DNA of 64,000 nucleotides from Hydrogenobaculum sp. Y04AAS1 (GTDB lineage Bacteria; Aquificota; Aquificia; Aquificales; Aquificaceae). Location: the NCBI RefSeq assembly GCF_000020785.1, contig NC_011126.1, positions 1,426,001 through 1,490,000 on the forward strand. Direction: 5' to 3'. Positions 12,651 to 42,084 of the stretch are shown here, in pieces. Under the pieces are notes generated by a model, which saw only the letters and a list, made by a program, of their open reading frames with translations, had not been told where the DNA came from and did not search any database. The translations under genes were made by a program, and so were the position numbers. The number at the start of each line of letters is the position of its first letter. The stretch's first letter is position 1.

Positions 12651-14324
12651 CTAACAAAAGCTGACATTTTCTACCAACCTGTTAGATTGCGGCGCCTCCG
12701 TGTTATAAAACACAGACTTACCCGACACACTATTTTGCAAACTCTTTAAGAGCTCACAAAATTCGTAGTCGCTTTTGATTTTAATGGGATTACAAAGCTT
12801 AAATAGTTTGTCTTTTAACCAAACAAAACATTTACCAGTACCTATTTTGATATGGTTTACGGCAGCGTTAATATCAGCATTGAATACTTTGTTTATAACA
12901 GTATCCAAGAATAAACCTCTCTTAACACGCTTTCCTTTGAAAGCATTAGTCAAGTGAGGACTATCTAGAGCGTTATCAACGCGTTTCGATGCTGATAAAC
13001 AGGCAGAAGCACCCCTTAGCTCTAAGAAATGCTTGGAGCACACTTGGATACTCTTTATATCATCACTTATACAACTTGTCTTAGATGTGTATCTCTCGTC
13101 TATATAATGCAAACCATACTCTTGGGCTTTTTGCTCTATGTATCTGATTAGCTTTATAAATGGTATTTGAATGAGGTTCTGTTTTACAGCTTTACTTAGT
13201 TCACACTCTCCATTGCTCTTTAGCTGTGCTAAGTTTTTAGATATAAAAAGTTCAAAAAGTTCAGATACTCCATTTAGGTGTAAATACTCAACTACACGCT
13301 TAGCCATTTTATGAAATTGATCTGTAAAAAACCTATTTCTTTTTGAGTATAAGAACGAAATAAATTTACCAATTCTCTTACCTTTCTCTGTATATTTAAC
13401 AGGATATTTTGTTCCTGTTTTTGATACACCCCATTCTAATACCTCTTTAGATTTTGATTCATTAAGCTTAGCTACAAGTCTATTAAACTTTGCATTGTAA
13501 TGTTTAAAAGGCTTGCCGTCTACTATTAATGACGGAGTATTTTCATCGTCTATAAACACTGCCATTAGATTGTTTATCCCTATATCTATGCTGGCGTATT
13601 TAAGTTGCTTTGTTTGTGTTTTCTTAAGTTCTTTCAAATAACTAATTTGTAGATACAAATCTCCATTATCGTATATAACTCTTGCTGAGTATAACTTGTT
13701 TATATCTGTTAGCTTTTTAACCTGCTCTTTATTTATATGTATATAAACTATGCTATTAGACAAATTAATACCTACTAAATTTTTCTTTTCTAAATGTGCA
13801 AAAGATAAAGAACAGTATTTATCCAATTCTACGGAATAGTTTGTTAATTTAGAAAGCTTCTTTGGTTTAGGAGGCTTAGGCATTCCTTGAAATAAACTTG
13901 GATTTTGTTTGCATAACTCTAAGTTAGTAAAATAAGTTTTAAAGTTTGCTTTTACTCTGTTTATGATATGAAGTAAGTTATGTGATTTTAATTTCTTGGC
14001 AGTTTCTTTCAATGCTTGCCAAAGTTGATTGTCTTTGTATTTGTTTTTGAGATACTCTACCTGTGTTAAGTGCTTAGAGTTGTACTCATACAAAGCATTT
14101 CTCATAAGTTGTGGAGAAGTTAGCAAATTAAAGTCGTTTGTATCTTTATCTTCTTTATATAGATTGTAGTTTTGGTTGATAAGTATTAGCAGTATATTTT
14201 CAAAGTGCTTGTATGCGAATAAGATATTCTTTAGTTTCTTTTCTAATTTATCAGACTTTATTCTAATAGAAAAGGTTCTTAACTCGGTATTTTGAGCTAG
14301 AGATTGTTTGCTATTCTTTTTCAT
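12651..14324 (-). CDS. tnpB: TnpB RNA-guided nuclease-type protein of an IS607-like element
   Basis: 557 residues, OrfB/TnpB family. Residues that fit the RuvC triad are Asp247 (SIDIGINN), Glu410 (DERYTSKTS) and Asp483 (FNADINAA). The segments IPFIKLIRYIEQKA and GKRVKRGLF match the TnpB subgroup that lacks a CxxC zinc ribbon, so absence of a zinc finger is not decay. About 35 residues (425-460) between TSKTS and GKRVKRG look like an insertion. The N-terminal wedge/REC-like region is long. An RNA guide would be expected to overlap the 3' end. It is associated with a truncated tnpA whose reading frame overlaps the start. Probably intact. Confidence 0.85.
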   Translation of the reverse strand: MKKNSKQSLAQNTELRTFSIRIKSDKLEKKLKNILFAYKHFENILLILINQNYNLYKEDKDTNDFNLLTSPQLMRNALYEYNSKHLTQVEYLKNKYKDNQLWQALKETAKKLKSHNLLHIINRVKANFKTYFTNLELCKQNPSLFQGMPKPPKPKKLSKLTNYSVELDKYCSLSFAHLEKKNLVGINLSNSIVYIHINKEQVKKLTDINKLYSARVIYDNGDLYLQISYLKELKKTQTKQLKYASIDIGINNLMAVFIDDENTPSLIVDGKPFKHYNAKFNRLVAKLNESKSKEVLEWGVSKTGTKYPVKYTEKGKRIGKFISFLYSKRNRFFTDQFHKMAKRVVEYLHLNGVSELFELFISKNLAQLKSNGECELSKAVKQNLIQIPFIKLIRYIEQKAQEYGLHYIDERYTSKTSCISDDIKSIQVCSKHFLELRGASACLSASKRVDNALDSPHLTNAFKGKRVKRGLFLDTVINKVFNADINAAVNHIKIGTGKCFVWLKDKLFKLCNPIKIKSDYEFCELLKSLQNSVSGKSVFYNTEAPQSNRLVENVSFC

Positions 14325-36909: not shown

Positions 36910-38445
36910 CTAAAATAAAAATTTCTCCCACTCAAAGCCCACAATGTTTTTATCTTTCTTGCTAAATTCTATCCCTATTAGATAGATCTCTTTGTACTTG
37001 CCCATGTACTTCTCATAATACCTTTTCTCTTTTATCTGTTTTAAAGCATTCCCTTCCTCTTTGTCCTCTACTACCTTAAACTCTATTATATAAACGCTGT
37101 CCTGGTTAAAGACACTTAAATCTATCTGGCCTTTGTTGGTGTTGTCTTCTGCTATCACATTTAGCCCTGCTCCGTTAAAAAGCGCATATACGATAGATGC
37201 ATAAAATCCCTCATAGGAGTCTATGTCGTTTTTCCTATACCAATCGTGGGGTATGCTTGCAAAAAATCTATGTAAAATGTCTTTTAGTTTTTCTACTTGT
37301 TTTGTCTCAAAAGCCTCTATTAGACCTATATCAGTTTTATATTTTGCTGAGATATCTTCTATTATATAGGTTAGAAAATAACTATTGAAGCTTTTTCTCA
37401 CTTCTAAGTTTGGATAGGACAATATGTATATTCCGTATTTTTCTTTAAAATCTTTTATTGTAAGATAACCAGATTGAAACAGAAGATTTTCTACTCTTAT
37501 ATTATCCACATCAAGATTTGATAGTATCTCATCTCCTACTTCAAGGTTCTCAAGCTCTGGTATGTAGTATCTGTTTTTCATAAACATCTTAATAAGAAAT
37601 GTAGGCGTTGCTGTTTCAAACCAGTAAGGTTTAAACATTTTCTTATCAAACAACAGCAGTATGTCAAAAGGATTGTAAACACTCTCTCCAAGCCAACTAT
37701 AACCGTTATACCACTCTTTTATCTTCTCTTTATCAAAATCTTTCAATCTATCTTCAAAAACACTTTCAAGCTCAGATTGGGTATATCCACATACTGTAGA
37801 AAAGTTTCTATCTACGGTAATATCGTTTAGCTGGTTTAACCCGCTAAATATAGATACTTTTGAAAACCTCGATACCCCTGTAAGAAATACAAGTTTAAGA
37901 TAAGGATCAGAGGGTTTTAGTATCTCAAAAAACTTTTTTAGTATATCTCTATTTCTTCTTGCTTTTTCTATGTCTTCTATTACATCAAGTATTGGTTTAT
38001 CGTATTCATCTATAAGTACCACTACTTTTTGATTGTATTTTTCGTATAATTTTTGGATGAGCTCTTGAAACTTTAGAGGTATGAGTCTTTTGGTGAGTTT
38101 TATATGGTGTAGTTTTGCTGTATCATCTAAAAACGATTTTAAAGACTCTAAGAGATTTTCCTCCGTATCTGGATAAGCTTGACTTAAATCAAACTTTATC
38201 ACTGGATACCTTTTCTCCCAATCCCAATTATCATACAGATAAAGCCCTTTAAATAATTCTTTGTTACCAGAAAACGCTTCTTTTAGTGTATCAAGAAAAA
38301 GAGATTTTCCAAATCTTCTGGGACGAGATAGAAAGTAATATCCACCGTTTTCTAATTTTTTAACAAACACTGTCTTGTCTACATAATAATAGTTGTTGTT
38401 TCTTATTTTCTCAAATGTTTGTATGCCTATTGGTAAAAGCTTCAT
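36910..38445 (-). CDS. AAA-ATPase-like / PD-(D/E)XK nuclease superfamily protein
   Basis: 511 residues. The N-terminus YYVDKTVFVKKLENGGYYFL leads into the P-loop PRRFGKSLFLDTL and then the Walker B-like VVVLIDEYDKPIL, as in the AAA-ATPase_like family. The C-terminus holds a PDDEXK_9 domain with GQIDLSVFN and IIEFKVVED. The family is common in genomes rich in mobile DNA; its role is unproven. Extended -10 TGGTATAAT (TATAAT at 38452-38457) ends 6 nt before the ATG. It closes the accessory zone. Confidence 0.85.
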   Translation of the reverse strand: MKLLPIGIQTFEKIRNNNYYYVDKTVFVKKLENGGYYFLSRPRRFGKSLFLDTLKEAFSGNKELFKGLYLYDNWDWEKRYPVIKFDLSQAYPDTEENLLESLKSFLDDTAKLHHIKLTKRLIPLKFQELIQKLYEKYNQKVVVLIDEYDKPILDVIEDIEKARRNRDILKKFFEILKPSDPYLKLVFLTGVSRFSKVSIFSGLNQLNDITVDRNFSTVCGYTQSELESVFEDRLKDFDKEKIKEWYNGYSWLGESVYNPFDILLLFDKKMFKPYWFETATPTFLIKMFMKNRYYIPELENLEVGDEILSNLDVDNIRVENLLFQSGYLTIKDFKEKYGIYILSYPNLEVRKSFNSYFLTYIIEDISAKYKTDIGLIEAFETKQVEKLKDILHRFFASIPHDWYRKNDIDSYEGFYASIVYALFNGAGLNVIAEDNTNKGQIDLSVFNQDSVYIIEFKVVEDKEEGNALKQIKEKRYYEKYMGKYKEIYLIGIEFSKKDKNIVGFEWEKFLF

Positions 38446-38542: not shown

Positions 38543-40546
38543 ATGAAAATTTTACTAGAAAATGGAAGCATAAATATATATAGTTTTGATAAAGAATATG
38601 TGATAATTGGCTATCATCAAGACCCTGAGAAAGAGATAAGGCTTGATTATATAGAAAAAAACAACATAGAACTTCTAAAAAGTAGGCTTTCAGGTCAAGC
38701 GGTTTATGTGGATGAAGAGACTATTGGGGTAAGAGTAAAAGGCACCAAAGAGCTTTTTTATGAGAGGTTTTTAAAAGCTTTTAAAAATATAATAAAGGAT
38801 GTAAATATAGAAGGCACTCAATTGAAAGTAGGTCAAAAAAGGCTTTCAGTGGTTCATGGGGATATTGAGGATGGTGCGTTTGAGATATTTTTGCCCTTTT
38901 CTTTAAATATAGAAAAAACGCTAAAGAGTATACATATGCCGGTGGAGAAACTCACCTCTTACGGTATAAAAGCAGCGGATGATAGGCTTACAAGCGTAAG
39001 AAAATCTATAGAAAAAGACATATCAAAAGAAGAGTTTATCAATATGCTTCTGAACAGCTTTTACGATGAGTTTGGGGCTTTTGATATAAAAGAAGAAGAA
39101 CATGTTTATTTTGAGACAGATAAAAACTTTATCTTTGAAAATGCAAAGCCAAAAGAGGGCTATACATATGGGCTTTATAGATGCAAAGGTGGTACTTTTA
39201 GAGTTTATATAAAAGCATCAGAGGGTGTTTTAGAAGATATTTTTATAAACGGAGATTATATAATATCACCAAAAGATTATATTAAAAGCTTAGAAAACTT
39301 CTTAAAAGGTAAAAAGATAGACATTATAAAAGATGAGCTTGATTTATTTTTAGAGTCTAGAGCTTTTAAAAGCATAGATATATCAAAAGAAGATATAAAA
39401 GAAGCGGTTTTGTTTACAATAAGAAAACTTGATGCAAAAGATTTTGGTTTAAACGAAGATGCACTTATTGCAAGTATAGGAGGAGATTTAAAAGAAAACC
39501 TTCAAAAGGCAAAGGTGATGCTGCTTCCTTACTGCGCCAAACCAAGATGGTGTGATTATAGGCATCTTGATGATTGCGGGGAGTGCGGTGGATGCACGGT
39601 AGGAGATGCCTATAGGCTTGCCTACCAAAAGGGTATGATACCTATTACCATTACATCGTTTGAGCTTTTAAGAGATACGCTTCTTTGGTGTGCTGATAAT
39701 GGTTATACTTATATAGGGCATTGCTGTTATGAGTTTTACGAAAAGCGCTACGAGGCTTTTCAAAAGGCCTCTATGTTTGGAGCAAATGGAGTGCTTTTTG
39801 ATATAGTAGGTACCACTTGCTATAGTCTTGGTGTGGAAGAAGAAGAAAAAGCTTATCATGGTGAGTTTAGTGTAGAGCTTGATCTCATAAAAGACGATCT
39901 TACTAAGTCTTTGGCTTTTAAAGAAGATGAAAAAGAATTTAGCAAATCTCATCAGAGCTTTGATTTTTCAAAATACTTTTTAGACTTTAAACCCCCTTAC
40001 TACAAAAAACCAAAAGCAGTGCCGACCCCAGAAGAAGATAGAACAAGAAGCGCCATGCAAATAGATGTCTTCAAAGGTGAGGCCACCATCAAAGACAGCG
40101 TAGTCTCTTACAAAGAAGCATTTAAAGAGCTTGCAAGCCTTATTAAGAGCTCAAAAAACCCAACGGTAGTAGTAGGACCTCTTTTATTTTGGGATTTTAA
40201 CGAAAAAGACCTCCAAGAAAAAGCCTATATCACAAGGCTCTTGATAGAAAAGATAAATGCCAATGTGAAGATACTACCAGATTATAGACCAAAACTAAAA
40301 AACTACGATCCAAACGTCGAGATGGACCCACCAAACCCCCATGAAGCCATACTTCATGGCAATCACGATATCACCATTCTGATAGGAACGCACTGCTACA
40401 GGACAGATTTTGTGATAAGGCTTCTAAAAAAACATACCCCCACCAAGGTGGTAGCTTTGTGTGGGCTTTATGGGCATCCAGAGGCGGATTTGTCTACAAG
40501 CTTTACAGATGCTAACAAACTAAAAGAGCTTTTAGATATGCTTTGA
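38543..40546 (+). CDS. Fusion protein: lipoate-ligase-like, DUF116 and CdhB-like domains
   Basis: 667 residues. Residues 1-260 resemble lipoate-protein ligase, including VIIGYHQDP and RLSGQAVYVD in place of the canonical RRxSGGGAV, and an LplA C-terminal-like block (YGLYRCKGGTFRVYIK). Residues about 320-440 fit DUF116: Cys331, Cys337, Cys345, Cys348, Cys351, then Cys383, Cys394, Cys395 and Cys426, likely Fe-S ligands. Residues about 515-667 resemble the acetyl-CoA decarbonylase/synthase epsilon subunit (CdhB): VVVGPLLFWD, ITILIGTHCYRTDF, YGHPEADLSTSF. Sulfur oxidisers with lipoate-binding proteins have unusual lipoate assembly enzymes, but a role here is speculative. It is monocistronic, convergent with the wzt-like gene (no gap). 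Confidence 0.7.
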   Translation: MKILLENGSINIYSFDKEYVIIGYHQDPEKEIRLDYIEKNNIELLKSRLSGQAVYVDEETIGVRVKGTKELFYERFLKAFKNIIKDVNIEGTQLKVGQKRLSVVHGDIEDGAFEIFLPFSLNIEKTLKSIHMPVEKLTSYGIKAADDRLTSVRKSIEKDISKEEFINMLLNSFYDEFGAFDIKEEEHVYFETDKNFIFENAKPKEGYTYGLYRCKGGTFRVYIKASEGVLEDIFINGDYIISPKDYIKSLENFLKGKKIDIIKDELDLFLESRAFKSIDISKEDIKEAVLFTIRKLDAKDFGLNEDALIASIGGDLKENLQKAKVMLLPYCAKPRWCDYRHLDDCGECGGCTVGDAYRLAYQKGMIPITITSFELLRDTLLWCADNGYTYIGHCCYEFYEKRYEAFQKASMFGANGVLFDIVGTTCYSLGVEEEEKAYHGEFSVELDLIKDDLTKSLAFKEDEKEFSKSHQSFDFSKYFLDFKPPYYKKPKAVPTPEEDRTRSAMQIDVFKGEATIKDSVVSYKEAFKELASLIKSSKNPTVVVGPLLFWDFNEKDLQEKAYITRLLIEKINANVKILPDYRPKLKNYDPNVEMDPPNPHEAILHGNHDITILIGTHCYRTDFVIRLLKKHTPTKVVALCGLYGHPEADLSTSFTDANKLKELLDML

Positions 40547-41275
40547 TTATACACCGCATAAACTCACTACAGTATCTACCTCCCCTCTTTGGATCAACCT
40601 ACCTTTGTCTATATAAATAGCTTCATCGCACATCTCTTTTACACTTGTCATATCATGGCTTACAAACAATATCGTTTTGTTTTTTCTTTTAAACTCTTTT
40701 ACCTTTTCTTTGCTTTTTTTCATAAAAGATATATCACCTACCGATAGTATCTCATCCAAGATTATAATATCTGGGTCTATACTAAAAGCCGTAGAAAAAG
40801 CAAGCCTTGAATACATACCAGAAGAGTAAGTCCTTACAGGTTCATCTATCACATCTTTTAACTCTGCAAACTCTATTATCTCATCTATTTTCTTGTATAT
40901 TTCTTTTTTGGAAAGCCCAAGGATAAGACCGCTTATGATGATGTTTTCTCTACCGGTGAGCTCCGGATGAAAACCAGTGCCAAGCTCCAAAAGAGGCACT
41001 AAGCTTCCTTTTACCTTTACGCTTCCAGAGGTGGGTTTTATGATGCCAGATATTATTTTAAGAAGGGTAGATTTACCAGCACCGTTTTTTCCTATTATAC
41101 CCAAAGTGCTTCCAGATACCATATCAAAGCTTATATTATCAAGGGCTTTTACTATCTGCTTTTGGGGTCTACCGTGTTTTATAAAATCCACAAAAGCAGA
41201 CTTTATGGAAAAATATTTTTTCGTATGTCTTTTAAAGATCTTTGTAACATTTTTTACCTCTATCACAACACTCAT
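40547..41275 (-). CDS. wzt: Polysaccharide ABC exporter, ATP-binding subunit (Wzt/TagH-like)
   Basis: 242 residues. Walker A GKNGAGKST, signature YSSGMYSRL, Walker B IIILDEILSVGD and H-loop SHD. The altered signature and GTGFHPELTGRENI are typical of O-antigen and teichoic acid exporters. It lacks the C-terminal carbohydrate-binding domain of full-length Wzt, so substrate recognition probably needs another factor. Its start overlaps the permease stop (41272-41275). It pairs functionally with the dTDP-rhamnose genes nearby. Confidence 0.88.
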   Translation of the reverse strand: MSVVIEVKNVTKIFKRHTKKYFSIKSAFVDFIKHGRPQKQIVKALDNISFDMVSGSTLGIIGKNGAGKSTLLKIISGIIKPTSGSVKVKGSLVPLLELGTGFHPELTGRENIIISGLILGLSKKEIYKKIDEIIEFAELKDVIDEPVRTYSSGMYSRLAFSTAFSIDPDIIILDEILSVGDISFMKKSKEKVKEFKRKNKTILFVSHDMTSVKEMCDEAIYIDKGRLIQRGEVDTVVSLCGV

Positions 41276-42084
41276 ATATACTCTGCGAAAACATCCTTTT
41301 TAGAGTGAAAATAGTTAAACCCTATTATATAAACTACTATGGATATAAAAAATAACAATATCAAAAGCTCGGGTCTTGGCATTAGGTTGTTATAAAAAAT
41401 ATCGTGGTATACCTTTATAAGATAAGCTACTGGGTTTAGGTATATTAGCTTTTGGTATTTAGAAGGTATTTGTGTATCAAAATACATAACCGGCATACAA
41501 AAAAACAAAAGCTGTATAATGGTCTGCATAATCTGTCTAACATCTCTATAAAATACGTTCCATGTGGCTGGGAAAAACGCTACACCTGCTGTGAGAAAAA
41601 ATTGTATTATTACCACCACCGGAAGGAAAAGCACTATAAAACTTATCTTAACATGGAAAAATATTAAAAATAAAAACAGTACAGGTATCGATAAAAGATA
41701 GTTTATAAGGTTAGAAACTACTTTTGTGATTACCACTATCTCAGCAGGTAGCGTAGATTTTGTTATCAAAGCCCCAGCAGAAACCACAGAATCGGTGGCC
41801 TCCATCACAGAAGAGGAAAACCAATTCCAGGGCAATATACCGCTAAAAAAATAAACTGGATAATTTTTTGCAGTATTTTTAAATATCACCACAAACAAAA
41901 ATGTATAAACCAAAAGATTTAAAAGAGGGTTTAGCATACTCCACAAAAAACCAAAAATAGAGCCCCTATACCTTATTTTTAGCTCTTTTAAAGCCAAAAC
42001 GTATATGAGGTAGTGATACTTATAAAGAAGGTAAAACGGATATATCAAAGCATTTTGCTTCATTTCCATACTATTATAACTCAA
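41272..42084 (-). CDS. wzm: Polysaccharide ABC exporter, permease subunit (Wzm/TagG-like)
   Basis: 270 residues with six hydrophobic segments. YRGSIFGFLWSMLNPLLNLL is the ABC-2 membrane signature, and VFYRDVRQIMQ follows the middle segments. It exports undecaprenyl-linked polysaccharide across the inner membrane with the ATPase encoded next to it. The protein may begin at one of two Met codons (1 or 6); both lack a clear Shine-Dalgarno sequence. Confidence 0.87.
   Translation of the reverse strand: MSYNSMEMKQNALIYPFYLLYKYHYLIYVLALKELKIRYRGSIFGFLWSMLNPLLNLLVYTFLFVVIFKNTAKNYPVYFFSGILPWNWFSSSVMEATDSVVSAGALITKSTLPAEIVVITKVVSNLINYLLSIPVLFLFLIFFHVKISFIVLFLPVVVIIQFFLTAGVAFFPATWNVFYRDVRQIMQTIIQLLFFCMPVMYFDTQIPSKYQKLIYLNPVAYLIKVYHDIFYNNLMPRPELLILLFFISIVVYIIGFNYFHSKKDVFAEYI

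Follow-up and report, generated by a model that had tools for sequence, protein, structure and literature searches.

A conserved A-run at the ligase/DUF116 junction of an Aquificaceae fusion gene predicts a short and a long product

Throughout the Aquificaceae, a single gene joins a lipoate-ligase-like part (LplA/LplB), a cysteine-rich DUF116 part and a PORdelta/CdhB-like part. What is new here is a conserved run of adenines, nearly always nine (A9), at the boundary between ligase and DUF116, which on the sequences alone predicts two products of one gene. It is very likely that both are made, by slippage or by ribosomal frameshifting, and quite probable that Hydrogenobaculum has re-split the arrangement into two genes; the combined reading of two products and a re-split we regard as likely. 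We infer programmed transcriptional slippage from the constancy of the run, the nearby stops in the other frames, the lack of RNA structure and the matching layout of the Thermus dnaX gene, in which slippage yields about half full-length product (PMC5009743). RNA polymerase would slip at the A9 between the LplA/LplB and DUF116 parts, giving a short product of about 360 residues, a complete lipoate (or octanoate) protein ligase whose end lies no more than a few codons from the run, and a long product that continues from the ligase into the nine-cysteine, probably Fe–S-binding DUF116 part and the PORdelta/CdhB-like part. Hydrogenobaculum would have lost the A9 and abandoned slippage, obtaining the short product from a separate 343-residue gene and keeping a long product whose ligase part has no catalytic residues.

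The window, which is the whole 64,000-nucleotide stretch of Hydrogenobaculum sp. Y04AAS1 DNA analysed here, comes from a complete genome of 1.56 Mb and contains the Hydrogenobaculum form of this gene (Table 1). The original prediction described one chain with lipoate-ligase-like, DUF116 and CdhB-like parts; the open reading frame, Pfam and NCBIfam bear out these parts and their ranges. The E value for the LplA-B_cat match (PF21948) is 9.8e-12; Lip_prot_lig_C aligns with residues 213–286 slightly below its cut-off (E 9.5e-5), and TIGR00545 matches with E 1.6e-17 at a score of 63.5 against a curated cut-off of 280. CO_dh scores 112.9 bits (cut-off 21). The DUF116 match (PF01976, residues 320–371) is weak in this protein (E 1e-4, 22.2 bits; cut-off 25), but most relatives score above that threshold (36 bits, E 2.5e-9 in genome G011). 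The predicted folds were recovered in part: AlphaFold2 and Foldseek returned a lipoate-ligase fold (6jom, E 3e-15) and a CODH/ACS epsilon-like fold at the C-terminus (9c0s_C, E 3e-4), but the DUF116 part was modelled with low confidence. The nine cysteines that had been assigned to this part (331, 337, 345, 348, 351, 383, 394, 395 and 426) are all invariant in an alignment of 25 sequences, and it probably binds an Fe–S cluster. Since the same three parts occur in the same order throughout the Aquificaceae, a chance architecture is ruled out, and the three-part chain is almost certainly real.

Table 1. Parts of the fusion gene in the window and the LipS1/LipS2 loci of Hydrogenobaculum
Feature	Position	Strand	Details
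LplA-like / DUF116 / PORdelta(CdhB)-like fusion, Hydrogenobaculum form	38543..40546	+	667 aa; ATG start; single ORF
Degenerate LplA catalytic-like part, residues 1–180	38543..39082	+	Pfam LplA-B_cat 16–173; alignment; N-terminal segment of relatives missing
Lost lipoate/ATP loop	38684..38713	+	RLSGQAVYVD, against RRITGGGAIYFD in relatives; alignment
Catalytic-Lys position, residue 100	38840..38842	+	Lys to Arg: KRLSV, against KKISG in relatives; alignment
LplB-like accessory part, residues 208–290	39164..39412	+	NF053749 LplB, E 3.5e-10; LplB-like match at residues 210–289; Foldseek 3r07_C, TMt 0.79
Counterpart of the A9 slippery run of relatives	39446..39469	+	A-run absent at this site
DUF116-like part, residues 310–475	39470..39967	+	Nine invariant Cys; Pfam; alignment
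CO_dh/CdhB-like, PORdelta/FORdelta-like part, residues 510–667	40070..40543	+	PF02552, E 1.8e-32
LipS1/LipS2 loci of Hydrogenobaculum	G000:C1:528277-529206 (L150:8148-9263); G000:C1:999097-999909 (L112:8055-9053)		

Whole-chain relatives, usually 724–760 residues long, occur across the Aquificaceae, the closest named ones being Hydrogenobaculum metagenome-assembled genomes at 85–87% identity. DUF116 is present in 51 of 136 Aquificota genomes, once per genome and in none outside the Aquificaceae; likewise, the fusion is absent from the searched Aquificota genomes beyond this family. Genus g3 (G006, G015, G022 and G028) is without the gene, and G011 has LplA and DUF116 only, as two overlapping reading frames, with the C-terminal part missing. 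Other phyla were searched for the architecture solely by a contig scan of GTDB, whose reach is limited to close relatives. The plasmids searched contained one ligase only, which is unrelated, and the viral contigs searched held no relative of the fusion. An Aquificaceae-type fusion gene with 85% identity to L026 also lies on a contig labelled Acidobacteria (L050, RFFP01000022.1), which is probably mis-binned. No gene neighbourhood is conserved: no other family lies near the gene in more than nine of about 39 loci. In the window, the gene is flanked by a 511-residue protein resembling an AAA-ATPase-like/PD-(D/E)XK nuclease family (36910–38445, minus strand), with no link to the fusion seen, and directly downstream by an ABC-2 type exporter pair, ATPase and permease, resembling Wzt/Wzm (40547–42084, minus strand).

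Translation of several related loci gave ligase reading frames that stop at one common point, beyond which DUF116 goes on in the −1 frame. This point coincides with an A-run present at all 47 distinct junctions from outside Hydrogenobaculum (45 A9, one A8 and one A10); the four junctions without a run, completing the census of 51, are those of the four Hydrogenobaculum, and no A-run was found at the corresponding site of the window gene. DUF116 continues in frame after 38 of the A9 runs and the A10, and in the −1 frame after seven A9 runs and the A8. The length stays at nine even though the codon phase varies, DUF116 being in frame 0, 1 or 2 relative to the end of the run, and the encoded residues vary as well (EKKR, EKKS, EKKT, DKKK, IKKKE and GKKN). 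Only two runs of at least nine A were found in 330 other reading frames of the same contigs (320 kb), and of 121 KK pairs elsewhere in the fusion genes, 18 are encoded by AAAAAA. When residues and local codon use are taken into account, an A9 has a mean chance of 0.06, which drops to 0.002 in two genomes among the richest in GC, these per-sequence values being non-independent because the sequences share ancestry. After the run, stops follow in both other frames, all within eight codons and with a median of two, against a null median of 18. In the tree of the downstream part, the −1 state requires eight changes, and well-supported branches make at least three of these unavoidable; the run shows a single loss, in Hydrogenobaculum, which is nested inside the A9-bearing clade.

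Could the run instead be a by-product of a lysine-rich linker, with the frame breaks as assembly errors or pseudogenes and the gene as an ordinary constitutive fusion? The linker is indeed rich in lysine, and the −1-frame loci all belong to metagenome-assembled genomes, the genes read from single-contig genomes being in frame. However, the A9 persists where AAA makes up only about 17–25% of lysine codons, its length is constant over phases and residues, and the stops in the other frames are unusually near. At the −1-frame loci, DUF116, and the C-terminus where present, are open and conserved, and seven of the eight have exactly nine A; this last count also led us to reject homopolymer sequencing error as their source. 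We therefore consider the by-product explanation very improbable. Annotation of the −1-frame loci would give two genes or a pseudogene, yet they are probably functional.

The same two products would also arise by −1 programmed ribosomal frameshifting at the run (A_AAA_AAA or A_AAA_AAG, as in E. coli dnaX). Slippery heptamers occur within the A9 in every phase, and the off-frame loci always place DUF116 in the −1 frame, as this mechanism would have it. Nevertheless, a heptamer requires only seven A, but nine are maintained in any codon phase; no RNA structure was seen downstream of the run (mean z 0.09), and an SD-like motif lies upstream in 18 of 45 cases, which makes it an inconsistent signal. 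Moreover, the in-frame genes carry stops in both other frames, as does the Thermus dnaX slippage gene (PMC5009743). Frameshifting thus seems unlikely, though it retains a modest chance, and programmed slippage is the mechanism that we favour.

The Hydrogenobaculum side of the argument rests on the ligase part. The degenerate loop predicted for the window protein was confirmed, but as a trait of the whole architecture the degeneracy did not hold, being confined to this genus. The aligned intact relatives have IALDxIMLxL, RRITGGGAIYFD and RPRNDIEVxGKKISG, whereas every aligned Hydrogenobaculum copy lacks the N-terminal segment and reads S(K/R)LSG(Q/P)AVYVD and TQLKVxQKRLSV, with R at the catalytic-lysine position. 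Accordingly, the RRxxGGGA(V/I) loop and the catalytic lysine of NDxxxxxxKxSG, both present in the aligned intact relatives and in the 343-residue paralogue, are absent from the window protein. Its identity to relatives is about 33% in the ligase part, 73–85% in DUF116 and 49–72% in the C-terminus, and the branch leading to the fused LplA of Hydrogenobaculum is about 5.4 changes per column long. Judged by these motifs, the ligase part looks dead as an enzyme. Comparison within the genus gives dN/dS values of about 0.15 for the fused LplA, 0.04 for DUF116 and 0.03 for the C-terminus; the first of these indicates that purifying selection still acts on the ligase part and that it is no decaying remnant.

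Hydrogenobaculum also has a separate ligase gene of the same type as the fused LplA. Its 343-residue product retains the motifs, matches the intact fused LplA at 45–48% identity across 342 residues, and ends just before the point equivalent to the A-run junction. No true stand-alone gene of this type was found in the other Aquificota genomes searched, where the ligase reading frames of G011 and G017 are −1-frame cases and were not counted. In the tree, the 343-residue ligase forms a long branch at the base of the fused-LplA clade, which appears compatible with duplication and with acquisition alike. One genus swapping a slippage site for two genes provides a natural control and argues that both products are needed.

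Ligases such as the predicted short form attach lipoate or octanoate to GcvH/LbpA-type carriers. For the long form, the job can require no ligase catalysis, since Hydrogenobaculum retains it without the ligase residues. Its distribution offers a lead: across the searched genomes, the fusion and LipS1/LipS2 are present together or absent together, with two exceptions in incomplete genomes: G008, 69% complete, has LipS1/LipS2 but yielded no fusion, and G011, 76% complete, has LipS2 but yielded no LipS1. This match involves very few independent gains or losses, and LipS2 was searched in 37 of 61 genomes. LipS2 scores about 205 bits; because this is under the curated cut-off of 270, we named it from similarity and context (it is two genes from LipS1 in G010). 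An NCBIfam search would miss the Aquificota LipS2 for the same shortfall. In Hydrogenobaculum, LipS1 adjoins lbpA in the shdr cluster and LipS2 lies elsewhere in the genome. No LipA match over the cut-off was found in this genus, which appears to depend on LipS1/LipS2 alone; most other Aquificaceae have LipA as well as LipS1/LipS2. In G007, a second type of lipoate ligase lies about 2.5 kb from LipS2 (L118:9614-10651 and 13133-14251) and may be a LipS partner ligase.

The original prediction offered two functions, of which one was a redox-controlled lipoate or thiol enzyme of sulfur oxidation, a single bifunctional enzyme acting with sHdr/LbpA. Its lipoate connection stands in that fusion-bearing genomes carry LipS1/LipS2 (save that LipS1 was not found in G011), and the expected shdr-lbpA clusters do occur in the fusion-bearing genomes examined at cluster level. 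The tie to sHdr/LbpA fails in genus g3, which has neither LipS1/LipS2 nor the fusion despite a complete shdr-lbpA cluster (G015, L148:3409-19988); there, LipA, encoded about 6 kb from the cluster, probably serves LbpA. Together with the loss of catalytic residues from the ligase part of the window protein, this makes the sulfur-oxidation enzyme improbable, and the fusion appears to track LipS1/LipS2 and not sHdr/LbpA as such, albeit through few independent events. The other function, maturation in C1 metabolism (CODH/ACS), drew on the CdhB-like C-terminus, for which the PF02552 match and the epsilon-like fold were indeed found. The role itself is scarcely credible: CdhC is absent from all 41 Aquificota genomes searched, and TIGR00315 (cdhB) gives the window protein 20.7 bits against a cut-off of 101. 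The CdhB-like domain serves as PORdelta/FORdelta in Aquificaceae; in the source genome, the two other such proteins are encoded within the clusters for the five-subunit ferredoxin oxidoreductases of pyruvate and 2-oxoglutarate and are 32–33% identical to the fusion C-terminus. This part is PORdelta/FORdelta-like and does not point to CODH/ACS. The POR/FOR delta subunits are exclusive to Aquificaceae and their function is unexplained (PMC10052474).

We tentatively suggest that the long form assists LipS1/LipS2 in lipoate assembly as an accessory protein. Its LplA-like part might act as a docking unit that holds the carrier protein (LbpA/GcvH-like) or a ligase, and its DUF116 and PORdelta-like parts might supply or gate electrons. 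A fuller and still more speculative picture would have the A9 yield a ligase and a ligase tethered to an Fe–S/DUF116–PORdelta module, which would pass electrons at the ferredoxin level to LipS1/LipS2 on the carrier protein, with Hydrogenobaculum re-split and its pseudo-ligase kept as the scaffold of the long form. The long form is thus a candidate for a missing electron-delivery or scaffold part of this pathway, and possibly a first experimental handle on DUF116 and the PORdelta/CdhB-like domain, neither of which has a known function. We found no paper treating DUF116 together with lipoate and none joining slippage with lipoate, and the text of the GeneTack survey does not name the fusion gene. 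To our knowledge, conserved productive slippage is uncommon in chromosomal metabolic genes.

Among known systems, the closest in layout is Thermus thermophilus dnaX (tau/gamma), which like the Aquificaceae fusion has a nine-base homopolymer in a long reading frame with nearby stops in both other frames. In Thermus, the long and short products are made by transcriptional slippage, which for the Aquificaceae gene is predicted from sequence; the gene and its function are different here, the frame has changed several times, and one genus seems to have exchanged slippage for two genes. The relatives of the window protein share with Lpl(AB)/sLpl(AB) the LplA and LplB-like parts, the motifs RRITGGGAIY and RNDIEVxGKKISG and the lipoate-ligase fold. 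Unlike these ligases, the fusion adds DUF116 and PORdelta-like parts, an extension that we know of no description of in sLpl(AB), and the catalytic motifs are gone from the window copy. The middle part has the cysteine-rich pattern of DUF116 (PYCAKP...C...CGECGGC...GHCC); it differs from a typical match in its weak score in the window protein and in being the only DUF116 in the Aquificota genomes searched. Finally, the C-terminus belongs to PF02552, as do the PORdelta/FORdelta subunits of the Aquificaceae five-subunit 2-oxoacid:ferredoxin oxidoreductases, but, in contrast to these, it is joined to a ligase and encoded outside the por/for clusters.
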